Assembly: GCA_001950395.1 (NCBI GenBank)
Contig: BDLO01000001.1
Coordinates: forward strand, 781,979 to 845,978
DNA from: Coriobacteriaceae bacterium EMTCatB1
Lineage (GTDB): Bacteria > Actinomycetota > Coriobacteriia > Anaerosomatales > Anaerosomataceae
Direction of reading: 5' to 3'
DNA length: 64,000 nt
Part shown: in pieces, positions 33,854 to 61,758 of the stretch
Layout of the letters: each line of letters opens with the position of its first letter
How positions within the stretch are numbered: the stretch's first letter is position 1
Notes under the pieces: generated by a model
What the model was told of the DNA's origin: nothing
Database searches by the model: none
The model's input: only the letters and a program-made list of their open reading frames with translations
Position numbers and translations under genes: made by a program

Positions 33854-35241
33854 CTCGACCGCCCCGCATCCTGCACCATGCGGCGGAACTCCGAGCCGCG
33901 GTGGTCGTAGCCCATGAACTCGTCGAAGGAGGCGCACCCGGGCGAAAGCAGGACTGCGTCTCCTGGCTCCGCTACCGATCGTGCGGCCTCGAACGCACCA
34001 GCGAGCCCTGGAGCGCGCAGCAGACGAAAACCGTCGAATCCATCGAATGCGGCCGCGATCTCGTCCGCCGCCTCGCCGAACACGACGACCGCCTTGGTCC
34101 GCTGCGACGCCGCCTCAGCCACAGGCACGAAGCTCGACCCTTTGTTCCTGCCTCCGAGCAGCAGCACGAGCGGACGGTCGTCGAACGCGGTCAGCGCCTT
34201 CAAGACGCTGTCTGGATTCGTCGCCTTCGAGTCGTTGAAGTACTCGACGCCGTCGACGACCCCCACGGGCTCGAGCCGATGCGGGAGTGGCTCGAACGTG
34301 CGAAGACCTTCTCGAACACCCGCCGGATCTGCGCCCGCCGCGAGAGCTGCCGCCGCCGCTGCAAGCGCGTTGCTCACGTTGTGCGAGCCCTTGATCCGGA
34401 GCTCGTCACGCGGCACGAGCTCGACTGGGCCTTGCCCAAGATCGACCACGAGCAGACCGTCTCTCAGGTACGCGCCTGGCGCCCACGGCTGCCGCGCGCT
34501 CACGCGGACCACTGAGACGCCAGCCCCCTCTGCCACTGGCGCGTACACGGCCGACCCCTCATCGTCGACGTCGATGACCGCCGTGTCCCCAGGACCTTGC
34601 TGGGCGAATATGCGGGCCTTGTCTGCCGCGTACGCTTCGAACGAGCCGTGGTAGTCGATGTGGTCAGGGGTGATGTTGAGAAGGACCGACACCCGTGGCC
34701 GAAACATAAAGCTCGACTTGAGCTGAAAGCTTGATACCTCCGCGACGAGCACCGTGGCTGGCCCTGCGTCCTCGACGACCGAGATGGCGGGACGCCCGAT
34801 GTTCCCCACCACCTCGCACGCCACTCCCGCACAGTCGAGGAGGTGGCCGACGAGCGCGGTCGTCGTGGTCTTGCCGTTCGTCCCTGTGATGGCGACCCAC
34901 GGCGAGCGCGAGGCGCGGTACGCGAGCTCGATCTCGCTGATGACCTCAGCAGCGGTCGACAGCGCGGACTGCATGAGCGCGCTGTCCGGCCGGACGCCGG
35001 GGCTCGCGACGACGATCTTGGCTGGGGCCGTCACGGCATCAGCTCCGAGCACGCACTCGACGCCGAGCTCCGCAAGCCCCTTCGCGCGTTCACGCAGCTC
35101 CGGGGTGTCTGCGGCGTCGTACGCGACCACGCGGTCAACACCGGCCCCGATCCGTTTCGCGAGAAAACGGCACACCGCCTCACCCGAGCTTCCAAGCCCG
35201 AGGACCGCATAGGAACCGGATGGTATGGACCGCTCGTTCAT
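33850..35241 (-). CDS. murD: UDP-MurNAc-L-Ala–D-glutamate ligase
   Basis: This 463-residue Mur ligase adds D-glutamate. Motifs include VLGLGSSGEAVCRFL, the ATP loop ITGTNGKTTTTAL, NITPDHIDYHGSFEAY, YFNDSKATNPDS and LSPGCASFDEF. ATG 35241 overlaps the mraY stop (ATGA), so the 35 extra residues of the longer frame are not used. Confidence 0.96.
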   Translation of the reverse strand: MNERSIPSGSYAVLGLGSSGEAVCRFLAKRIGAGVDRVVAYDAADTPELRERAKGLAELGVECVLGADAVTAPAKIVVASPGVRPDSALMQSALSTAAEVISEIELAYRASRSPWVAITGTNGKTTTTALVGHLLDCAGVACEVVGNIGRPAISVVEDAGPATVLVAEVSSFQLKSSFMFRPRVSVLLNITPDHIDYHGSFEAYAADKARIFAQQGPGDTAVIDVDDEGSAVYAPVAEGAGVSVVRVSARQPWAPGAYLRDGLLVVDLGQGPVELVPRDELRIKGSHNVSNALAAAAAALAAGADPAGVREGLRTFEPLPHRLEPVGVVDGVEYFNDSKATNPDSVLKALTAFDDRPLVLLLGGRNKGSSFVPVAEAASQRTKAVVVFGEAADEIAAAFDGFDGFRLLRAPGLAGAFEAARSVAEPGDAVLLSPGCASFDEFMGYDHRGSEFRRMVQDAGRSR

Positions 35242-36299
35242 GCTTGCTTCCACAGAGCCGTCGACACGAAGTAGAGCGCGAATCCCGCACCTGCCATGAT
35301 ACCGGTGATGATCCAGAATCTCACCATCACCTTCGTCTCGCTCCATCCCAGCATCTCGAAGTGGTGGTGAAGCGGCGCCATCCTGAAGATCCGCTTCCCC
35401 GTCAGCTTGAAGGAAGCCACCTGAAGGACCACCGAGAGCGTCTCCAGCAGGTACACGCCGCCAATCAGCAGGAGCAGAAGCTCGGTCTTCGTCACGATGG
35501 CCATCGCCGCGATGGCCGCCCCTAGCCCGAGCGAGCCGGTGTCCCCCATGAAGATGTCCGCGGGATGGCTGTTATACCAGAGGAACCCCACGCACGCGCC
35601 CGCCACCGTCGACGCCAGCAGCGACACAGGCAGGGAGTCCTGGCGGAAGGCGATCGCCGCGTACGACAGCATCACGAGCGTTATCGTGCCCGCCGCCAGC
35701 CCATCTAGGCCGTCCGTGAGATTCACGGCATTGCTCTCGCCGACCACCATGAACCACACGAGCATGAGGTACAGCCACGGCACCCGGACGGCGAGGTCGC
35801 CTACACGCACGATGCTCGACAGGGTGCCGAGGTCCACGTACCCGACTGGCGGCGTCAGCACCTTCGTGGAGATGTGCGCCCAGTTCACCGCAGCAAGCGC
35901 CACCAGGATCGCGACGACGGCCTGACCGGCGATCTTCGCACGCGGGCGCAAGCCGAGCGACCGCTCGTGGACCACCTTCGCGTAGTCGTCGATGAAACCC
36001 AGAAGCCCGCACGCCAGCATCGCCATGAGCACGATCAGACCCTTTCGGTCGATCTCGCCCCCGCCGAGGTACACGACTGCGACGACGAGCAGGATGAGCA
36101 CGCCGCCCATGGTCGGCGTGCCCTGCTTGACGAGGTGTCCCTGGGGACCGTCGGCGCGCACCTGCTGACCGATGTTGCGATACCTCAGGATCCGTATCCA
36201 CAACGGGAACAGCGCGCCCGCGAGCGACATCGCAACCACGGCCGCAAGGAGGACCTGGTAGGTCGGGTAGCGAGCTATCTCAGGTATGACGCTAAACAT
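35238..36299 (-). CDS. mraY: phospho-MurNAc-pentapeptide transferase
   Basis: This 353-residue enzyme with about ten membrane segments makes lipid I from UDP-MurNAc-pentapeptide and undecaprenyl phosphate. It shows GTPTMGGVLIL, the DD pair in GFIDDYAKV, NAVNLTDGLDGLA, MGDTGSLGLG and the HHHFE motif. All catalytic residues are present, which contrasts with the second MraY-like protein at 54.6 kb. Confidence 0.97.
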   Translation of the reverse strand: MFSVIPEIARYPTYQVLLAAVVAMSLAGALFPLWIRILRYRNIGQQVRADGPQGHLVKQGTPTMGGVLILLVVAVVYLGGGEIDRKGLIVLMAMLACGLLGFIDDYAKVVHERSLGLRPRAKIAGQAVVAILVALAAVNWAHISTKVLTPPVGYVDLGTLSSIVRVGDLAVRVPWLYLMLVWFMVVGESNAVNLTDGLDGLAAGTITLVMLSYAAIAFRQDSLPVSLLASTVAGACVGFLWYNSHPADIFMGDTGSLGLGAAIAAMAIVTKTELLLLLIGGVYLLETLSVVLQVASFKLTGKRIFRMAPLHHHFEMLGWSETKVMVRFWIITGIMAGAGFALYFVSTALWKQA

Positions 36300-37704
36300 G
36301 AGGTCTGATGATCCCCTCGACCACGCGCTCCAAACCCATCACCCGCGACGCCTTCACCAGCACGACGTCCCCGGCCTCGAGGAGGTCGTCGAGCACTTCG
36401 CTCGCCTCCTCGGGCGTCGCGCACGGGCGCACCGCATCGGGGCCCATGCCCTCCGCTCTCGCGCCCTCTGCGATGCGACGGGCGAGCGTCCCGACGGTCA
36501 CGAGCACGTCGATCCCGGAGCGCCCGACCTCCTCTCCCAGCTGGAAGTGCGCCAGCTCTGCAAGCGAGCCAAGCTCGGCCATGTCGCCGAGCACCGCTAT
36601 CCGCTTACCAGCCGCTCTCGTGTCCATCAACGCGCTGATCGCAGCGCGCATCGACACGGGGTTCGCGTTGTACGCGTCGTTGATGACCGTGACGCCAGAC
36701 GCCGACTCGAACACGTCCATCCGCATCCCGCTCATCCGGGCCTCAGCGAGCCCGTTTACGACGCGTTCGAGCTCGACGCCGAGATCGAGCGCGACTGCGG
36801 CTGCTGCGAGCGCGTTGTAGACGTTGTGCTTGCCGAGGACGGGCAGCTTCACCGAAGCACGAGCGTCGCCGGCCACCAGTGTGAAGACCGGCAGCCCATC
36901 CTCGTCGACGGCGATCTCTTCGGCCCGGACGTCGCACTCTTCGCTCGTCCCGTACGTGACGACGCGTGCGCGCGCCCTCTCGCGGAGACGCGCAGTCCAT
37001 GCGTCGTCGCCGTTGAGGAACACGGCGCCGCTCTCCGGTATCGCCTCGACGAGCTCCCCTTTCGCCTCCGCGATGGCTTCCTGGCTCCCGAGCACTCCCA
37101 CGTGGCTCAAGCCGACGTTCGTCACGAGACCGTGCGTCGGACGCGCGATCGCGGCGAGCTCCGCGATCTGGCCGGGGCCGCGCATGGCCATCTCGACGAC
37201 GAGCGCGCCGGTATCCGCTCCCGCTTCGAAGATGGTGAGCGGGACGCCCAGCTGGTTGTTCCGGTTGCCCTCGCTCGCCACCACCTTGAAGGTCGTGGCC
37301 AGCGCGGCCCGCATGAAGTCCTTCGTCGTCGTCTTGCCCGTGGAGCCGGTAACGCCCACAACGGGGCACGTGAGCCGCGACCGATGGTACGCGGCCATCG
37401 CTTGGATGGCGGCGACGGCGTCTGCCACGAGCACGACCGCCGCTTCTGGATGGCGTGAGCCAGCGACCGCCTCGAGCACCGGCTCGTCAGCGCGCGTGAC
37501 GATGACCACGCGCGCGCCAGCATCCACGGCTGCTCGCACGAAGTCGTGCCCGTCTGCGTGCTCGCCGACGAGCGCCACGAACGCGTTTCCGGGCTGCACC
37601 TCACGCGAGTCGATGGAAAGCCCGTTCGCCATCACCGATCCGTCGCCAGCGACGAGCTGACCTTGCGTGGCTTCTGCGATGCGCTCCGCGCTCATCCTCA
37701 ACAC
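36292..37704 (-). CDS. murF: UDP-MurNAc-tripeptide–D-Ala-D-Ala ligase
   Basis: This 470-residue Mur ligase finishes the pentapeptide precursor. It shows the ATP loop GVTGSTGKTTTKDF, RNNQLGVPLT, GLSHVGVLGSQ and YNANPVSMRAA. It overlaps murE by 7 bp and mraY by 8 bp at its two ends. Confidence 0.96.
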   Translation of the reverse strand: MLRMSAERIAEATQGQLVAGDGSVMANGLSIDSREVQPGNAFVALVGEHADGHDFVRAAVDAGARVVIVTRADEPVLEAVAGSRHPEAAVVLVADAVAAIQAMAAYHRSRLTCPVVGVTGSTGKTTTKDFMRAALATTFKVVASEGNRNNQLGVPLTIFEAGADTGALVVEMAMRGPGQIAELAAIARPTHGLVTNVGLSHVGVLGSQEAIAEAKGELVEAIPESGAVFLNGDDAWTARLRERARARVVTYGTSEECDVRAEEIAVDEDGLPVFTLVAGDARASVKLPVLGKHNVYNALAAAAVALDLGVELERVVNGLAEARMSGMRMDVFESASGVTVINDAYNANPVSMRAAISALMDTRAAGKRIAVLGDMAELGSLAELAHFQLGEEVGRSGIDVLVTVGTLARRIAEGARAEGMGPDAVRPCATPEEASEVLDDLLEAGDVVLVKASRVMGLERVVEGIIRPHV

Positions 37705-51919: not shown

Positions 51920-52999
51920 CTAAGCAGAGCCACCGGGCTTCTGATGTATGAGCGTCGCAGCGACGCGTCCCGCCGCCGCTGCCGCGAGGAAGAACGCCGG
52001 GTCGTCTTCAGGCGTCCGTCCCATCGACACGAGCGGCACCCCACGCGTGTCGGGGATCCGCGCGTCCACGACCACGCGCTCGTGCCGCTCCCAGATGCCG
52101 GCTGACTCCAGCGCGCGATCGATATGCTCGCTTTGCTGGGCGTCCAAGACCGGCACAGCCACCAGCGCGGGCGCCAACGCCACGCGCCCAAGCGCGACGA
52201 GCGAGTGGTGGCTCACGCCGCGGTGCCGTTCCCGCGCATCCGCGAACGACACCCGAAGCGCCGCGACGGGACGGCCGCCGAGCGCGGCCGCCGCGTTGAT
52301 GGCTTCGCCTGCAGCGACGCCTCCGTGGCCGAACCTGCTCGCCGTGCCCGGAATGCCCGGTCCGATCGCCGTGACGACGACATCTGCGGACAAAACGCGC
52401 GCGGCGGCGAGCAGCGCCGAATGCAGGGTCACGGCCTCCAGGTCGCCTCCGAACGCGTGTCCGGCCGTGACCGTCCCATCCACGAGGCCGACGCGCCGCA
52501 TGTCGGCCACGGCGTCGGATATCGCGAGCGGAAGCGCCGCCTCGTCCGTCATCACGTACGCGACGCGAGCGTCCGGCGCGGCCTCTTTGACCGCCGCTGC
52601 GACCGGCAGGACGTGGGAGTGCAGCGGACAGCAGACGACGGGAACGCCGCCGAGGTCGTCGGCGTCGCGAAGCTCGGCAGCGTGCTCGCTCGCGGCCTCT
52701 TCCACGGCGAGGACGTCCCGCTGCAGAGGCGTGTAGCGGAGCTTCATGATGTGCCCGCCAGATGCGTCCGAGAATCCTCGGCCGTCCCCACGCGCGACCA
52801 CGAAGTGGGCGCCGCCGGTGCCGAGGCCGAGGTCGACCGCGGTGGTATTCAGCAGCACCGGCTCGCCGGCTGCGCACGCGCCGGCAAGCGACGTCAGGCA
52901 CAGCGCGAGCGCCGTCCCACCGTCGACTCGGACGCTGAGCCGCTGGAGCCCCGGCCGCTCTTCGACGATCTCGATGACCTCGCCCCAGACCAGCCGCAT
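51920..52999 (-). CDS. DUF3866 family protein
   Basis: This 359-residue protein has the family features: an N-terminal RLVWGEVIEIVEERPGLQRL, GLGTGGAHFV, GHIMKLRYTPLQRDVLAVEE, GIPGTASRFGHGGVAAGEA and SHHSLVALGRVAL. DUF3866 is restricted mostly to actinobacteria and some firmicutes and has no known activity; it is often close to xerD and nadK-region genes. ATG 52999 after AGAGG is chosen over the long upstream frame that overlaps pyrG. Confidence 0.9.
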   Translation of the reverse strand: MRLVWGEVIEIVEERPGLQRLSVRVDGGTALALCLTSLAGACAAGEPVLLNTTAVDLGLGTGGAHFVVARGDGRGFSDASGGHIMKLRYTPLQRDVLAVEEAASEHAAELRDADDLGGVPVVCCPLHSHVLPVAAAVKEAAPDARVAYVMTDEAALPLAISDAVADMRRVGLVDGTVTAGHAFGGDLEAVTLHSALLAAARVLSADVVVTAIGPGIPGTASRFGHGGVAAGEAINAAAALGGRPVAALRVSFADARERHRGVSHHSLVALGRVALAPALVAVPVLDAQQSEHIDRALESAGIWERHERVVVDARIPDTRGVPLVSMGRTPEDDPAFFLAAAAAGRVAATLIHQKPGGSA

Positions 53000-53018
53000 G
53001 GCCTCTTCTCCGCTCGTT

Positions 53019-54640: not shown

Positions 54641-55633
54641 TCAGACCTCCAAAGAACCGTCGCCAGCGCTGCCGTTGCCATCATAGCGCGAAGCGCCGTC
54701 GTCGTGGGGTCCCGTCGGGCTGTCTGGCGAGCGTGGCCGCCCCAGACCGTCAAGCCACGCGAGGATCCGGACGCGCTCGATGACCGCGCTGAACGACACG
54801 CGCTCCGAGAGCAGGTTGAGGGCGAGCGCCACGGCCCCGAAGGCGACGACGCCAGCCAGCGGCAGAGCGGAGACGATCGCTAATCCGGCGACCGCGCCCA
54901 TCGCGTTGGCGCCGGCGTCGCCCAGCATCGCCCGCTCCCCGAGGTCGTAGCGCCAGCACGCCACCGCCGGGCCGAGGAGCGCGACGCCGATGAGGGCTGC
55001 GACAGGGACGAAGCTGCCGCCAGCCACGCGGGCGGCCGACAAGCCGACGAGCACGGCTCCCGCAAGCGCCAGAACGACGTACGCCTTGAGCGCCCGCCCT
55101 GGACGCAGGTCGAGCAAGTTCACGAGATTGGCGGACAGCGCGACCGAGGCTCCCGCCGCGAGCACGCCGATCGGAGACTCGCCCCACTCCGCGAAGCCTG
55201 CGACCGCCCGTGCCGCAGCGACGCTCGCGACGCCGATGCCGACGAGCTTCAATCCGCCCGTCGTCAGACGTCCTCGAACGAGCGCTGTCAGGTGGCCCTT
55301 GAATCCGCGCGCGTCCCCGGTCCCGTACGCGTCGTCGACGAGCCCGAACGCGCTCGCCGCGACCGCCAGCACGCCGGCCGTGCCGAGCACAGCTGCCACG
55401 CTCGACGGAGACCCAAGGTCTTCGAGCAGCCACGCCGAGATCAGAGCGCTTCCTCCCCACGCCATCCAGACTATGCCGAGCCCGAGCATGACCTCCGAAC
55501 CTCGCCAGTTGACCGCTCGTGCGCCAGGAGACGCCTCCAGCGCCGGAAGGAGCAGGCACGCAACGGCCCACGGCAACCCCGCGCACAACACGACGACGCC
55601 GGCAAGTGCGATCGCGAACGATGCAAGCGGCAT
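54641..55633 (-). CDS. atypical MraY/WecA-family membrane protein
   Basis: This 330-residue protein has nine or ten hydrophobic segments. It keeps the aspartate pair ([12 protein letters not shown]) and [10 protein letters not shown] of phospho-sugar transferases. The usual NLTDGLDGLA motif reads [15 protein letters not shown], and the HHH motif of MraY is absent. It is therefore either a transferase with altered chemistry or a non-enzymatic relative. The true MraY is at 35-36 kb. It is one base from the polytopic gene upstream and 8 bases from pyrG. Confidence 0.8.
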
Positions 55634-55634
55634 C

Positions 55635-57323
55635 TCATGCCTCCTTCAAAGACGCATCCGCTGTTGCCGCACTGAGAGCAACGCCCGCAAAGAGTGCAAG
55701 CAGCGCCATCACCACGACACTCGAGTCTTCGGTAAGCGACGAGACCACGCCGCCTGCAAGCGCAGCGGTGAGGGCAGAGCGCACCGCAGGACGGTCGGCC
55801 AGCACCGTTCCCATCTTCGCGGGCGGCCGCAGCCTCACCGCAGCCGACACGAGCCACGCCGCGAACCCCACGAGAGCTGCTGGATGCTCGACGTACGCGC
55901 GCAGCACCGCTGTCAGCCGCTCGAGCACGATACCGATGGCTCCCCCGGTCCTGCCGGCCTCGCGCACAGCGAGCCCTACGTGCGTGCCCGCTCCGGCGAG
56001 ACGCTCGACGCCGACGACGACGGCGACGGCGACCACCGCGGCGATCGCGATGAGCCCGACGTCGCGCCACGCTAGACGCCCGCGGGGGGTCTCTGCGAGG
56101 AAGACGCCCGCGACAACGGCCCCCCAGACAGCGACGACGGAGTTCGCGCCGAGCACAGGCAAGCTGCAGATGGATACCGCGAGGATGCCGGATGCGAGCG
56201 TCACGCGCCTCCACGCGGGCTCGGGGAGCCACCCGCCTTTGAGCGCGCACGCCGTCAACCACGAGCCGACGAGGATGGCAGCGCCTTCGTTCCCGATTCC
56301 GTAGAAGCGGAAACCCGCCAAGGGAGCATAGGAGAACGCCGTTCCTGGGGCAAGCGGGGCCCCGAGAAGCTGGTCGGCGGAAGCGACTGCGGCGGCGAAA
56401 GCACACACCGCCGCGACCGCCGCCGACACCCCGCGACGTTCCATCACCGCCATCGCCACGATCCACAGCACGCCAGCGGCTCCGACGGTCAGCGTCAGCA
56501 GCCGAGGCGCAGTCGCCGGGTACCGCTCGAGCACGCGCGCGAGCAGCGTGGCGGGCGGCACGCACAGCGACAGCAGCAGCGTCCGTGAGAGCACGACCGT
56601 CCAGTACCTGCGAGCCGCCTCTCGGAGCCGTGAGAGCGGGAGGCCCCACAGCGCGAGCACGGAGACGCACGCCAGCACGCCGAACGCGACGACGATCGGC
56701 GCTTGCGCGGCGCGCGCGGCATCGAAGTACGCCTCCTGGCGCGCGAGGGACTCGGGCGCTTCGCGCTCAGGAACGACCGAGAGGACCGGGCGAGCGCCCG
56801 GACCGTGCTCGCCCGCAAGCTCCCGCACTAGGGCGGCGACGTCCTCGGCTGCGATCAACCCGGCACGATGCGTGTTCGCGCTCGCGAGCAGCCCTGCTGG
56901 GATTCCCTCGCCCGCCACGCAGACGAACCCATGCGCGAAGCCAGAAGGCTCGCTCACGACGACGACGGCCTCCCCTTCGGCTTCTCCCTGCGCCTGCGCG
57001 ATCGCTCGGTCGACCGCAGCCGCCTGAGAAGCCGCGTCTCCAGCGTCGACGATCTTAGCCGCTGAACCCATCGCCGCCTGTTGCAGCGGCGGCACCTCCC
57101 GAGGCGAACTCGCCACGAGCGCCATCGCCCCGCGCTCGGCGAGGGACTGGAGCGCGGGCATGCTCCCGTCGACGGCTTGCTTCGCGCTAAGCGAGGTGCA
57201 CGCGACGACTGTCACGCGTCTGGCAGCGGACAGCGGCTCGTGCTCCGCGGCGCAGCCGGCCGCCGACGCGAAGAGCAGCGCGGCGGCGAACGAGACCAGC
57301 ACCTTGTGAGCACGACGACGCAC
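55635..57323 (-). CDS. polytopic membrane protein with alkaline-phosphatase-like N-terminal head
   Basis: The protein is 562 residues if translation starts at GTG 57323 (AGGGAG upstream); GTG 57347 is an alternative. It begins with an export or lipoprotein signal (LLFASAAGC). A head of about 180 residues follows, with SMPALQSLAERGAMAL and ANTHRAGLIAAEDVAALV, the pattern that starts and ends alkaline-phosphatase/sulfatase-like folds, but obvious metal ligands are missing. About ten membrane segments follow, with FRFYGIGNEGAAILVGSW in the first third. The type is seen beside murJ and steA/steB in other Gram-positive genomes. Function is unknown. It diverges from murJ. Confidence 0.75.
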   Translation of the reverse strand: MRRRAHKVLVSFAAALLFASAAGCAAEHEPLSAARRVTVVACTSLSAKQAVDGSMPALQSLAERGAMALVASSPREVPPLQQAAMGSAAKIVDAGDAASQAAAVDRAIAQAQGEAEGEAVVVVSEPSGFAHGFVCVAGEGIPAGLLASANTHRAGLIAAEDVAALVRELAGEHGPGARPVLSVVPEREAPESLARQEAYFDAARAAQAPIVVAFGVLACVSVLALWGLPLSRLREAARRYWTVVLSRTLLLSLCVPPATLLARVLERYPATAPRLLTLTVGAAGVLWIVAMAVMERRGVSAAVAAVCAFAAAVASADQLLGAPLAPGTAFSYAPLAGFRFYGIGNEGAAILVGSWLTACALKGGWLPEPAWRRVTLASGILAVSICSLPVLGANSVVAVWGAVVAGVFLAETPRGRLAWRDVGLIAIAAVVAVAVVVGVERLAGAGTHVGLAVREAGRTGGAIGIVLERLTAVLRAYVEHPAALVGFAAWLVSAAVRLRPPAKMGTVLADRPAVRSALTAALAGGVVSSLTEDSSVVVMALLALFAGVALSAATADASLKEA

Positions 57324-57444
57324 GGGCAGCTCCCTGCGAAGAGTCACCGTCCTGCCGGCCCCTCCGGCCGGCGGGGCTCGCTTGCAGTGTATACCGAAGG
57401 CAACGGCTGCGTCTCGGCGACGCGCACGGCCCGCCCGCCTCGGA

Positions 57445-57450
57445 TACAAT
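57445..57450 (+). promoter_or_regulatory. candidate -10 of the murJ operon
   Basis: TACAAT matches the -10 consensus at five of six positions, about 36 bases before the proposed murJ ribosome start. No good -35 is seen. Confidence 0.45.
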
Positions 57451-57485
57451 CGTGCAGTCATGCCGCTCGACCACGGGAGCCACCC

Positions 57486-59090
57486 ATCGACAAGAAGCCG
57501 TCCATAGCGCGATCGACCGCCACGATGTCGGTGGCGACCACGCTCTCGCGCATCACCGGTTTCGCGCGCACCTGGGCGATGGCCTACGCCCTCGGCGTGA
57601 CGGTGCTCTCGGCCTCGTACCAGGTCGCGAACAACATCCCGAACATGATCTACGAGCTCGTCGCCGGCGGCACGCTCTCGTCGGTGTTCATCCCGCTGTT
57701 CATCGAGCGCATGCAGCGCGACGGCAAGGACGAGGCGTGGCGCTTCGCGAGCACCGTGCTCAACATCACCGTGCTCGCGCTCGGGCTCGTCGCGCTCGCG
57801 GGCACGCTAGTCCCCGAGCCGTTCGTGCGCACGCAGACCTTCCGCATCTCGCCGGAGAAGGCGGCCCTCGCGGTGCACCTGTTCCGGTTCTTCGCGGTGC
57901 AGGTCGTCTTCTACGGCGCGCTCGCCATCTGGACGGGCGTCTTGCACTCGCACCGCAAGTTCTTGACACCCGCTGTCGCGCCCATCTTCAACAACGTCGT
58001 CGTCATCGTGACGATGCTCTTCGTGTACCTGCCGCTCAAGGACACGCACCCTCAGGCCGCGATCGACGGGCTTGCGATCGGCACCACCTTGGGCGTCGCC
58101 GCGATGGCGCTCGTGCAGGTGCCGGCGCTCATCCGCATCGGTGCCAAGTTCCACCTCTCGATCGACTGGCGCCACCCTGGCTTGAAGAAGCTCGCCGCCA
58201 AGATGGCGCCGATGGTCGTGTACACCATCATCAACCTGGTCTGCATCTCGTTCCGCAACGCCTACGCCTTCCAGACGAGCGAGACCGGACCCGCCGTGCT
58301 CGCGTACGCGTGGAACTTCTACCAATTGCCGTACGGCATCTTCGCCATCGCGCTTTCCACCGCCATCTTCCCCGAGATCGCCTCGCTCGCGGACGCGCGC
58401 GACTGGGACGGCTTCAAGCGCATGTTCGTGCGCGGGCTGAGATCGCTGTCGGTCATCATGCTGCCGCTCGCGGCCATGCTCATCGCGCTCGCGACCCCCG
58501 TGATCCGCCTGTACCGCGCGGGCAACTTCACCGCATCCGACGTGCCGGTGGTGGCCGAGGTGCTCGTGTGGTGGGCTGCCGGGCTTTTGTTCATGGCCGC
58601 GAACATGTACGTGCTCCGCACCTTCTACGCGCTGCAGGACACCAAGACCCCGATGGTCACCAACTTCTTCGGAAGCATCCTGCAGGTCTCGCTCTACGCG
58701 CTGCTCACGAGCGGCATCGGCTCGTGGAAAGGCATCGGGCTCGCGGGCATCCCCGTCGCGGACGGCGTGTTCTTCGCGCTGCACCTCTCCGCGCTCCTCG
58801 TCATCCTGCGCCGCAAGGTCGGGCCGTACGGGCTTGGCGGCATCGTCTCCACGGTCGCCAAGACCGCGCTCTCCTCGCTTGCAGGCGCCATCGCGGCAGC
58901 CGGCTTCGTGCGCGCGACGCCGGGGCTCTCGGGTCCTGGCGTGTTCGTGGCGCAGCTCGTGGCCGCAGGCATCATCGGGCTCGGCGTCAGCTACGGTGTC
59001 GCCGCGCTCCTCGGCGTGAGCGAGGTCTCATCCGGCGTGCGGCGCGCACGGCAGATGGTCTCGTCGCGGTTCGCGAGGGGACGACGATGA
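57486..59090 (+). CDS. murJ: lipid II flippase MurJ
   Basis: This protein of about 534 residues has fourteen hydrophobic segments and the MurJ pattern: SVATTLSRITGFARTWAMA at the start, ANNIPNMIYELVAGGTLSSVFIPL, PNF-like FYQLPYGIFAIALSTAIFPEIA, and TFYALQDTKTPM. It flips lipid II across the membrane. The frame has no ATG or GTG at the expected place: GGGAG at 57475-57479 is followed at six bases by ATC (57486). The first ATG, at 57525, has no ribosome site and would drop 13 residues. Stop overlaps the next start by four bases. Confidence 0.92.
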   Translation: MDKKPSIARSTATMSVATTLSRITGFARTWAMAYALGVTVLSASYQVANNIPNMIYELVAGGTLSSVFIPLFIERMQRDGKDEAWRFASTVLNITVLALGLVALAGTLVPEPFVRTQTFRISPEKAALAVHLFRFFAVQVVFYGALAIWTGVLHSHRKFLTPAVAPIFNNVVVIVTMLFVYLPLKDTHPQAAIDGLAIGTTLGVAAMALVQVPALIRIGAKFHLSIDWRHPGLKKLAAKMAPMVVYTIINLVCISFRNAYAFQTSETGPAVLAYAWNFYQLPYGIFAIALSTAIFPEIASLADARDWDGFKRMFVRGLRSLSVIMLPLAAMLIALATPVIRLYRAGNFTASDVPVVAEVLVWWAAGLLFMAANMYVLRTFYALQDTKTPMVTNFFGSILQVSLYALLTSGIGSWKGIGLAGIPVADGVFFALHLSALLVILRRKVGPYGLGGIVSTVAKTALSSLAGAIAAAGFVRATPGLSGPGVFVAQLVAAGIIGLGVSYGVAALLGVSEVSSGVRRARQMVSSRFARGRR

Positions 59091-59776
59091 GAGCGGCGGT
59101 TGTGATCCCTGCGTACAACGCGGAGGACACGATCGGCGCGACTGTTCGAGCCGCCGCCGCGATCGAGGGCGTGGCGCAGGTCATCGTGGTCGACGACGGC
59201 TCGACAGACGCCACAGCCCGGCCGGCCGAGGAGGCAGGAGCGTCTGTGATCCGCCTCGACCGCAACAGCGGCAAAGGCGCCGCTCTCAACGAAGGCATCC
59301 GCCGCTTGGATCCAAAGACCGAAGCCGTGGTCTTGTTGGACGCCGACCTCGGCGAGACTGCCGTCGAGGCCGCAAAGCTGCTCCGCCCGCTCGTCGACGC
59401 CACGGCAGACCTCGCCATAGCCGTGCTCCCCGCTCCCACGCGCTCAGGCGGCATCGGGCTCGTGAAGCGCACGGCGCGCTGGGGCATACGCCGGCTGTCG
59501 GGATACGACGCGACAGCGCCGCTCTCAGGCCAGCGGGCTCTGACCCGGCAGGCGCTTGACGTCGTGACGCCGTTCGCACCTGGATTCGGCGTCGAGGTCG
59601 CCATGACCGTCCGTGCTGCGTGGGCCGGTCTGCAGATCGTGGAAGTGCCCGTCGCCATGAGCCACAGCGCCACCGGCCGCGACCTTGCTGGATTCGTCCA
59701 CAGGGGAAGGCAGTTCGTCGACGTGGTGCGAACGCTCATGGCGCTCGCAGCATCACGATCCGCGCGCAAGCGCTGA
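59087..59776 (+). CDS. family 2 glycosyltransferase
   Basis: This 229-residue cytoplasmic enzyme has the GT2 nucleotide-sugar fold: VVIPAYNAEDTIGATV, VVDDGSTDATA, NSGKGAALNEGI and the DXD-type LLDADLGE. There is no long membrane tail, so it resembles dolichol-phosphate-sugar synthases in size. It is coupled to murJ by ATGA. Its product is probably an envelope sugar-lipid, but the substrate is unknown. Confidence 0.88.
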   Translation: MRAAVVIPAYNAEDTIGATVRAAAAIEGVAQVIVVDDGSTDATARPAEEAGASVIRLDRNSGKGAALNEGIRRLDPKTEAVVLLDADLGETAVEAAKLLRPLVDATADLAIAVLPAPTRSGGIGLVKRTARWGIRRLSGYDATAPLSGQRALTRQALDVVTPFAPGFGVEVAMTVRAAWAGLQIVEVPVAMSHSATGRDLAGFVHRGRQFVDVVRTLMALAASRSARKR

Positions 59777-59787
59777 GGGCAGGCCCG

Positions 59788-60612
59788 TCACAGGTCGGGG
59801 AACGGCTTGCTCGCGCCCTTCTTGACTCCGAACCACCCCTCGGCTCGGCCCGCCAGGCACCACACCAAGGAGCAGGCGCCGGCTGGAGCGTCCACGTCGT
59901 CGACCGCCGAAAGACCCGCCCGCGACGCCGCTGCCGCGACTCCCGTGTCTCGGCCCATCGCTTCCGCTCCGACGCACGCAATCCCGCGATTCTTGAGCGC
60001 GGCTGCCAAGGCGATGCCGAACTCGTCCGGCTCGTCACCCGCCGTCGCTATCACGACGCACGCATCGACCGGTCCATCGAGATTGCGAGACGAGACCGCT
60101 CCGGCAGATCGCAGCGCATCGAGCACAGGCCGCGGACCAGCGGTGGTGAGCTCAGACGACAGGGCTTCCGCTGCTTTCGCGTACGCTTCGGACCCGGTGG
60201 CCACGTCGCTCCCCAACGCTCTCGGCACCGCCACGTCGAGATCCGCTCGCGGCCTTTCGAGCATGAGGACCGCCACTTCCCCGCCTGCTTGCTCCACTGC
60301 GGTCCGGACGGCGTCCAATCCGTCCGCGCGACCAGCGTTCGTCACCACGAGAACCCGACGCCCGTCGAGCGCGCCTCGCACCAGCGCCTGGGCGGCCGCC
60401 TGCCCGAAGGCGCGCTCGGCCTCGAAAGAGCGCTTCAAGCTGGTGTTCTCTTGCTGCAGCGTGTCGAAACGCGACTGCAACTGTTGGACGAGCGATTCGA
60501 CGCGACCGCTCACCGAGCCGCGCTCAGCGACGACACCCCCGAGCACGAGGCCCACAGCGAGCGCCAAGAACACGGCGACGAGAGACACGACGTGGTACCG
60601 CAGGTTGTACAT
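59788..60612 (-). CDS. steB: MctB/SteB-family membrane protein
   Basis: This 274-residue protein begins with MYNLRYHVVSLVAVFLALAVG, a single membrane helix, then a coiled coil (about 35-70) and an extracytoplasmic domain. It belongs to the family of mycobacterial MctB (Rv1698) and corynebacterial SteB, which works with SteA in daughter-cell separation; earlier work called it a copper-transport channel. It follows steA by 24 bases and faces the GT2 gene tail to tail. Confidence 0.88.
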   Translation of the reverse strand: MYNLRYHVVSLVAVFLALAVGLVLGGVVAERGSVSGRVESLVQQLQSRFDTLQQENTSLKRSFEAERAFGQAAAQALVRGALDGRRVLVVTNAGRADGLDAVRTAVEQAGGEVAVLMLERPRADLDVAVPRALGSDVATGSEAYAKAAEALSSELTTAGPRPVLDALRSAGAVSSRNLDGPVDACVVIATAGDEPDEFGIALAAALKNRGIACVGAEAMGRDTGVAAAASRAGLSAVDDVDAPAGACSLVWCLAGRAEGWFGVKKGASKPFPDL

Positions 60613-60636
60613 GTCAGATGCTCCTCACCGAGCCGT

Positions 60637-61758
60637 TCAGATCCCGAGAGCCGACCGGACGCGCAGCACCACCAAGCGGACGAGCGTCCGCGCACCCGGC
60701 GAGATCAGCACCGCCGCAGCGATCACGCCGATGGCAGCCAGCGCCAGCGCCACCATCTCGCCGGCTCCGGCAGACGCCTTGTACAAGCGGCTCACGCCCT
60801 TCGCGTCCACGAGCTTCGAGCCCACCTTGAGACGCACGAGGAACGTCGAGGCGGCCCCTTTGCGTCCCTTGTCGAGCTGCTCTATCAGGTTGGTGTGCGT
60901 CCCCACCGCCACGATGAGCTCCGCGCCGCACTCGTACGCGAGCAGCAACGCGAGGTCCTCGCTGGTTCCGGGCATCGCCCACTCGACCCCAGCCAGGCCG
61001 AGCGATTCGAGGCGTTCGCGCCCGGGGCAGCGACCGTCCGGATAGGCGTGCACCACGAGCTCCGCGCCGCTTCGGAGCGCCTCGTCGCTCACCGAATCCA
61101 TGTCCCCCACGACGACATCGGGCCGAAGCCCGAGCTCCATGAGCGCGTCCGCGCCCCCGTCCACGCCGACGAGCACCGGACGCACTTCGCGGATGTACGG
61201 CAGCAGAGCCCGGAGGTCCTCCTTGTAGTCGTAGCCGCGCACGACGACGAGCACGTCCCTGCCCGCCATCTGCGTCCTGATCGCCGGCACGGAGACGCCC
61301 TTCGTGACCAGCTCTCTCTCTTTGAGCATGTGCTCGATGGTGTTGCGAGCGAACTGCTCGAGCTGTTGATCCAACCCGTCCTTCGCCGCCTCCATCGCAC
61401 GCTCGACCGCGTCGACCGAAAGCGGCGTGCCCGAAGCGACGACTTCTCCGTCCTTGAGGACCTCCCCGCCGTCGATCTCGATCTGGTCGCCGTCAGACAG
61501 CCGCTCGAAGATCTCCTGACCGACGTCGTCGATGAGCCGGACACCGCCACGCACGAGCACGAGCGGCCCCAGATTGGGATATGCGCCGGATATCGACCGC
61601 GAGGCGTTGACGACGGCCTCCACGCCGGTCTCCAGAAGCGCTTCCGCGCTCACGCGGTCCATGTCGACGTGGTCGACGATCGCGATGTCGTTGCGACCGA
61701 GACGCTTCACGAGGTCTTTCGTGCGGCGCCCGAGACGCGCTGTGCCGACGATGCGCAT
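60637..61758 (-). CDS. steA: SteA-family cytokinetic ring protein
   Basis: This 373-residue protein has a cytoplasmic part with a thiamine-pyrophosphokinase-like fold (ALMELGLRPDVVVGDMDSVSD), an earlier domain with ARLGRRTKDLVKRL and DIAIVDHVDMDRVSAE, and one membrane helix near the C-terminus (about 340-362). SteA of Corynebacterium localises to the division ring with SteB and affects peptidoglycan hydrolysis by RipA. The pairing with steB supports the same role. Confidence 0.88.
   Translation of the reverse strand: MRIVGTARLGRRTKDLVKRLGRNDIAIVDHVDMDRVSAEALLETGVEAVVNASRSISGAYPNLGPLVLVRGGVRLIDDVGQEIFERLSDGDQIEIDGGEVLKDGEVVASGTPLSVDAVERAMEAAKDGLDQQLEQFARNTIEHMLKERELVTKGVSVPAIRTQMAGRDVLVVVRGYDYKEDLRALLPYIREVRPVLVGVDGGADALMELGLRPDVVVGDMDSVSDEALRSGAELVVHAYPDGRCPGRERLESLGLAGVEWAMPGTSEDLALLLAYECGAELIVAVGTHTNLIEQLDKGRKGAASTFLVRLKVGSKLVDAKGVSRLYKASAGAGEMVALALAAIGVIAAAVLISPGARTLVRLVVLRVRSALGI

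Follow-up and report, generated by a model that had tools for sequence, protein, structure and literature searches.

Conserved co-inheritance of SteA and SteB with a glycosyltransferase, an MraY-fold protein and a pseudo-phosphatase membrane protein suggests a lipid-linked sugar pathway in Actinomycetota and Bacillota

Between recN and pyrG, the complete 1.84-Mb genome of Coriobacteriaceae bacterium EMTCatB1 (phylum Actinomycetota) encodes the proteins SteA and SteB together with a small GT2 glycosyltransferase, an MraY-fold protein, here called mraYL, and a polytopic membrane protein with an alkaline phosphatase (AlkP)-like head, here called memX. We analyzed this locus within a window of 64,000 nucleotides (contig BDLO01000001.1, positions 781,979 to 845,978). 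That the five genes constitute an ancient co-inherited functional unit of Actinomycetota and Bacillota is well supported, because their distribution, linkage, joint loss and, in one locus, fusion all point to one unit. The gene set is real and conserved, combines known with orphan families and is apparently undescribed. Its make-up suggests that SteA and SteB were originally part of an undescribed pathway for a lipid-linked surface sugar, and the five-gene unit taken together with a SteAB-coupled, lipid-linked glycan mechanism is the explanation that we favor with moderate confidence.

The distribution of the genes was examined in 149 genomes each from the clostridial phylum and the Actinomycetota. 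In the clostridial phylum, SteA (scored over its cut-off), mraYL and memX were found in 101, 100 and 102 genomes, respectively. SteA and mraYL were both present in 99 genomes, each alone in 2 and 1, and both absent in 47 (Fisher 4e-35, phylogeny being ignored), while SteA and memX were shared by 100 genomes, with 1 and 2 single occurrences and 46 genomes having neither. Among the Actinomycetota the three genes were present in 69 (SteA), 66 (mraYL) and 60 (memX) genomes; 64 had both SteA and mraYL (5 and 2 single, 78 neither) and 58 both SteA and memX (11 and 2 single, 78 neither). The three families are thus found in nearly the same genomes, which, for these three, answers the co-occurrence check that a sequence-only reading of the window, proposing a linked envelope-assembly set, had named. 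The distribution of memX follows that of SteA and mraYL even though memX often lies far from steA, and absences recur inside individual families (f5, f15, f29 and f33), a pattern in favor of repeated joint loss.

Linkage between steA and mraYL is tight, as all 99 clostridial pairs are located on one contig at 1.4–3.5 kb from each other and 58 of the 64 actinobacterial pairs lie within 10 kb; the genes are hence linked in relatives, where the sequence-only reading had named unlinked genes as evidence against the set. Among 80 loci obtained by scanning named genomes with mraYL, a co-directional steA-steB-GT2-mraYL operon was present in Peptostreptococcaceae (including Clostridioides), Syntrophomonadaceae, Thermoanaerobacterales, Halanaerobiales, Tumebacillus and others, and the Micrococcales showed the order steA-steB-mraYL-murJ-pyrG. 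In one actinobacterial locus (L232), known from a single metagenome assembly, GT2 and mraYL form one continuous frame of 523 codons beside steB. The clearest mraYL in these 80 loci with no steA or steB nearby, and with no contig end to explain it, is on the contig of an Armatimonadetes metagenome-assembled genome (L181).

In the EMTCatB1 window, recN, steA, steB, memX, mraYL and pyrG follow each other on the minus strand, and murJ and GT2 are placed between steB and memX on the plus strand, the GT2 start overlapping the murJ stop. Since these two genes are opposite in strand to the others, the set is not a single operon in this genome. The arrangement nadK-recN-steA-steB-(GT2, murJ on the opposite strand)-memX-mraYL-pyrG was kept in 20 of the 20 relatives from the same order that were mapped, every one of which had been selected for holding memX, and the flanks nadK-recN and pyrG-DUF3866-xerD were conserved in them as well. 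Two loci from different families (L268 from genome G028 and L269 from G033) read nadK-recN-murJ-pyrG, with steA, steB, GT2, memX and mraYL all missing from the locus and murJ kept; neither memX nor mraYL was found anywhere in G028 and G033, whereas SteA was not searched genome-wide there. The conserved flanks could in principle mean that unrelated genes were merely held together by slow rearrangement of a conserved region. To this explanation we assign a negligible probability, as the co-occurrence holds in genomes with a distant memX, order and strand differ between the phyla, GT2 and mraYL are fused in one locus, and the five genes are absent as a group from a locus that keeps its flanks. 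Co-occurrence and block loss effectively refute it.

Because murJ stays in the two loci that have none of the other five genes, we regard MurJ as separate from the unit, which is SteA-SteB-GT2-mraYL-memX. By its profile match, MurJ belongs to the MurJ family, and it is most likely a housekeeping lipid II flippase: no MurJ other than the copy at the locus was found in the EMTCatB1 genome, and in the 31 genomes searched, one MurJ over the cut-off was present in 29 and none in 2. The sequence-only reading had counted MurJ among the set, as the dedicated flippase of the pathway. Although murJ is at the locus in all 20 mapped relatives, and in several other families lies co-directionally between steB and memX, this role is very improbable given that it is the sole genomic MurJ, that it is retained after block loss, and that the clostridial steA-steB-GT2-mraYL operons are without it; MurJ was accordingly dropped as a member. 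Minus MurJ, the linked SteAB set of envelope type that was proposed is strongly supported by co-occurrence, tight linkage, block loss and the fusion.

Phylogenetic trees of SteA, SteB, GT2 and mraYL separate the two phyla at 95–99% purity, a pattern that mainly vertical inheritance would produce. Distance correlations between the trees mostly reflect species history, and no functional evidence was drawn from them. The genes had been read as an insert relative to the mycobacterial neighborhood, in which steA, steB and pyrG occur without them. There probably was no insert, because the set is found in deep Actinomycetota and in Bacillota alike; with trees that fit mainly vertical descent, this reading was abandoned, and reduction is the likelier origin of the mycobacterial arrangement. 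The five actinobacterial genomes with SteA and no mraYL all come from one family and are 5–7.5 Mb in size; this SteA-only family is probably mycobacterial.

The mraYL sequence itself had no significant match in Pfam, NCBIfam or the PDB, and weak PDB-search matches of mraYL and memX to a thioesterase and a reductase were set aside as chance. A profile built from 46 mraYL relatives matched MraY structures (E 4e-9) with the DD, NxxNLxD and GDxG motifs aligned, and 24 of the 46 members matched PF00953 individually. Invariant in all 46 sequences, from both phyla, are D100 and D101, N169, N172 and D175, G238, D239 and G241, and one Lys. The acidic motifs of the PNPT superfamily for the Mg/diphosphate site (DD, NxxNxxD, GDxG) are therefore present, placing mraYL in this superfamily on sequence grounds. 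Its predicted structure (predicted local distance difference test score, pLDDT, 92.4) gave a top Z score of 21.2 to MraY and 16.6–19.5 to other PNPT rows including DPAGT1, compared to 5.1 for the best unrelated fold; as modeled, mraYL is an MraY/DPAGT1 membrane fold of the PNPT superfamily. It has signatures of its own (NLxDLRPGRAxK and SExxSF). The features expected of MraY, the lipid I synthase, were lacking: mraYL gave no TIGR00445 match, and in place of a His motif (HHH) near the C-terminus, no C-terminal His was invariant among the 46 sequences. A role as the MraY of the cell was rejected, as the canonical mraY (35241–36338, with PLHHHFE, 309 bits) is present in the division and cell wall (dcw) cluster of the same window. 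The sequence-only reading had called the protein degenerate, which does not agree with a core of DD, NxxNLxD and GDxG that is invariant in 46 relatives; the MraY His motif alone is absent.

For GT2, the PF00535 match (Table 1) and the invariant D85xD87 indicate a GT-A domain with DxD. Its active-site residues D37, D85xD87, H193 and H205-R206 are invariant in 30 homologues, and its closest solved relatives are GpgS and dolichol-phosphate mannose synthase. It scored below the NCBIfam equivalog cut-offs for AglJ (92.6 of 325 bits), GpgS (69.1 of 262) and PpgS (53.9 of 370). In the Clostridia, memX lies beside a GT4 glycosyltransferase in most loci read (L248–L267); in Peptostreptococcaceae it is found between alaS and a yqgF-like gene instead. 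Because the same GT4 subfamily adjoins memX in both phyla, with a position between murJ and memX in several families of the Actinomycetota, the wider pathway probably includes this second glycosyltransferase as well; neither in the window nor in the mapped order loci was a GT4 of this type found. The loci of family f39 (L120–L122) have one GT2 more, which in L120 is separated from memX by a membrane glycosyltransferase of the PMT_2 type (PF13231).

Like mraYL, memX had no significant Pfam, NCBIfam or PDB match with its own sequence. The true start of the 608-codon frame is probably nearer to 57302–57323, and its relatives have about 770 residues. The model of one relative (L056, pLDDT 90.5) consists of an N-terminal AlkP-fold head followed by a polytopic domain of about 11–12 helices, where ten membrane passes had been counted from the sequence. 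The modeled head aligned with AlkP-superfamily structures at Z 22.0 over 279 residues, which supports membership of the fold, and YejM/PbgA was among its structural matches. YejM/PbgA is a regulatory example of an AlkP head lacking the usual metal motifs. The phosphatase-like head that had been proposed is thus borne out as an AlkP fold by the full heads of the relatives; according to the alignments, it is much shortened in the window protein and its own family, and the two-metal site (Asp, nucleophile, Asp-x3-His, Asp-His) was not found: the first Asp occurs only in part of the family, and no Asp-His pair was seen in the rows examined. With these motifs missing, an active phosphatase or sulfatase is not supported. 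The five residues invariant in 47 homologues are R528, G531, G586, H644 and D731, each of them within the membrane domain. Short-headed members of the window's family (window 57302–57461; L040, L042, L044, L047) have a lipobox-like N-terminus (LAGC, LTGC, AAGC), which suggests that the reduced head may serve as an anchor of the lipoprotein type. One locus (L133) has two memX copies, one on either side of mraYL.

An envelope-assembly role of the set is plausible. In the mechanism that we favor, mraYL would transfer a sugar-1-phosphate from a nucleotide sugar to polyprenyl phosphate, GT2 (GT4 in other lineages) would extend the lipid-linked sugar at the cytoplasmic face, and memX, with the invariant Arg, His and Asp of its membrane domain and a putative pseudo-phosphatase as its outer head, would handle it on the outer face. 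SteA would respond to the state of nucleotides or nucleotide sugars and pass a signal by way of SteB to wall hydrolases, so that daughter-cell separation would be tied to glycan synthesis. MurJ would be a housekeeping neighbor, and mycobacterial SteAB would have arisen from the unit by reduction, with the regulators kept and mraYL and memX lost. SteA of Corynebacterium glutamicum gained stability with UDP or GDP but with neither ADP nor triphosphates, and the authors, who did not identify the ligand, propose that the protein senses cell-wall status (PMC12977500); this stabilization fits the sensing of nucleotides or nucleotide sugars. We hold more tentatively, and with some doubt, a fuller version: an undescribed lipid-linked glycan pathway, already present in the stock from which Bacillota and Actinomycetota descend, would have SteAB as its regulatory half and mycobacterial SteAB-RipA as its stripped remnant, SteA would bind the nucleotide sugar used by mraYL/GT2 or their nucleotide product, and the supply of nucleotide sugar or glycan would be coupled to separation.

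Several observations weigh against the favored mechanism. The glycan product and the septal role are both inferred, the unit has no dedicated flippase or glycan polymerase, and mraYL, which has no MraY His motif, could bind or regulate instead of catalyzing a transfer. No GT2 was detected in loci of the Micrococcales type (L233, for example), and a GT4 takes its place in several other families of the Actinomycetota. One actinobacterial family (f45) has SteA but neither mraYL nor memX, six more of the sampled genomes have SteA and lack memX, and the co-occurrence statistics take no account of phylogeny. Clostridial steAB adjoins spo0A, which could point to sporulation (PMC12977500).

Two other functional explanations were weighed. 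The proteins could serve as sensors, with mraYL a non-catalytic MraY relative that detects the carrier lipid or peptidoglycan lipid intermediates for SteAB, and GT2 and memX modifying or monitoring lipid II. The missing His motif, the frequent presence of the probable lipid II flippase MurJ as an actinobacterial neighbor and a memX head without the usual metal motifs, as in YejM/PbgA, would suit this; we consider it improbable, since the invariance of DD, NxxNLxD, GDxG and Lys in 46 diverse members would be unusual for a dead enzyme and GT2 retains all its catalytic residues. Somewhat less unlikely is a lipid-linked sugar or glycolipid made mainly for sporulation or general envelope chemistry and not for septal separation, with SteAB regulating or scaffolding enzymes instead of a hydrolase and RipA control being a redeployment in the mycobacterial line only. 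The unit is, however, present in deep Actinomycetota, which are not known to sporulate in this way. The operon is general in Clostridia, where steAB is downstream of spo0A (PMC12977500), and mycobacterial SteA works without SteB through MtrAB (PMC12338722), so that its role appears plastic. A further point against the sporulation or general-envelope reading is that the SteAB phenotypes studied in most depth are defects in separation (PMC6705760, PMC12977500).

All parts that the sequence-only reading had placed between steB and pyrG were recovered there with curated models and, for the two orphans, fold and profile work (Table 1). SteA matched NF040608 with 488.8 bits over residues 3–369 (curated cut-off 150), and SteB, 24 bases from steA, matched the MctB profile PF11382 over positions 1–306 of 306 (E 9.4e-39), identifying both as family members. 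The DUF3866 gene (51920–53005), conserved here and adjoining mraYL in many Clostridia, is an uncharacterized neighbor of the unit. A complete-looking dcw cluster (18178–43010; mraZ, FtsI-type penicillin-binding protein, mraY, murD, ftsW, murG, murC, ftsZ) and a DivIVA/Wag31-like gene lie in this window, placing the SteAB locus near the division cluster.

Table 1. Genes of the SteAB locus and its flanks in the EMTCatB1 window
Gene	Coordinates	Strand	Description	Supporting match or feature
recN	63438-61813	-	conserved left-hand flank	TIGR00634 465.7 bits
steA	61758-60637	-	putative cytokinetic ring protein, TPK-like cytoplasmic domain	NF040608, PF12555, PF04263
steB / mctB	60612-59788	-	single-pass SteA partner	PF11382
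GT2	59087-59776	+	small GT-A glycosyltransferase	PF00535 E 8.5e-22
murJ	57525-59090	+	neighbor, probably outside the unit	PF03023 E 2e-92, TIGR01695 over cut-off
memX	57461-55635	-	608-codon frame	predicted AlkP-fold head (reduced here) and C-terminal polytopic domain
mraYL	55633-54641	-	330 aa	predicted divergent polyprenyl-phosphate sugar-1-phosphate transferase fold, PNPT superfamily
pyrG	54632-53019	-	conserved right-hand flank	NF003792 880.7 bits

In corynebacteria and mycobacteria, SteAB governs cell separation along with envelope integrity and drug tolerance; the cells of steAB mutants do not come apart (PMC6705760, PMC12977500), and in mycobacteria SteA (TapA) activates MtrB without SteB (PMC12338722). 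A 2026 paper describes SteAB as largely confined to Actinobacteria, with steAB beside spo0A in a restricted subset of Bacillota (PMC12977500); the presence of clostridial SteA in our sample is much wider. Term searches of the SteAB papers returned no mention of GT2, PNPT or memX partners, a literature search by Clostridioides difficile locus tags gave no paper, and, in line with the sequence-only reading, we found no paper describing a pathway with this set. The cytoplasmic ligand and the origin of SteAB are open questions in the 2026 literature, and our results point to nucleotide sugars as candidate SteA ligands. Through co-carriage with SteA, they also provide a first functional setting for the PNPT-fold protein and the pseudo-phosphatase membrane protein, and they predict an undescribed glycan in about two thirds of the sampled clostridial genomes.

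Compared to the SteAB-RipA system of C. glutamicum and Mycobacterium tuberculosis (PMC6705760, PMC12977500), the locus shares adjacent SteA and SteB orthologues and the recN and pyrG flanks, but here and in most sampled non-mycobacterial SteA carriers mraYL (usually with a glycosyltransferase) and memX are present as well. With MraY and DPAGT1, mraYL shares the modeled fold (Z 16.6–21) and the core DD/NxxNLxD/GDxG, whereas it differs from MraY in the missing His motif, its own signatures and a profile E value of only 4e-9. As in YejM/PbgA and LtaS-type membrane AlkP proteins, memX would combine an AlkP-fold outer domain with a polytopic membrane protein, yet its head is N-terminal and its longer C-terminal membrane domain bears the invariant residues. 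Finally, the unit resembles teichoic acid, secondary wall polymer and O-antigen pathways in having a PNPT-fold enzyme, GT2 and GT4 glycosyltransferases and a membrane protein with an outer domain, and is set apart from them by the lack of a dedicated flippase or polymerase, the tie to SteAB and the protein with a pseudo-phosphatase head.

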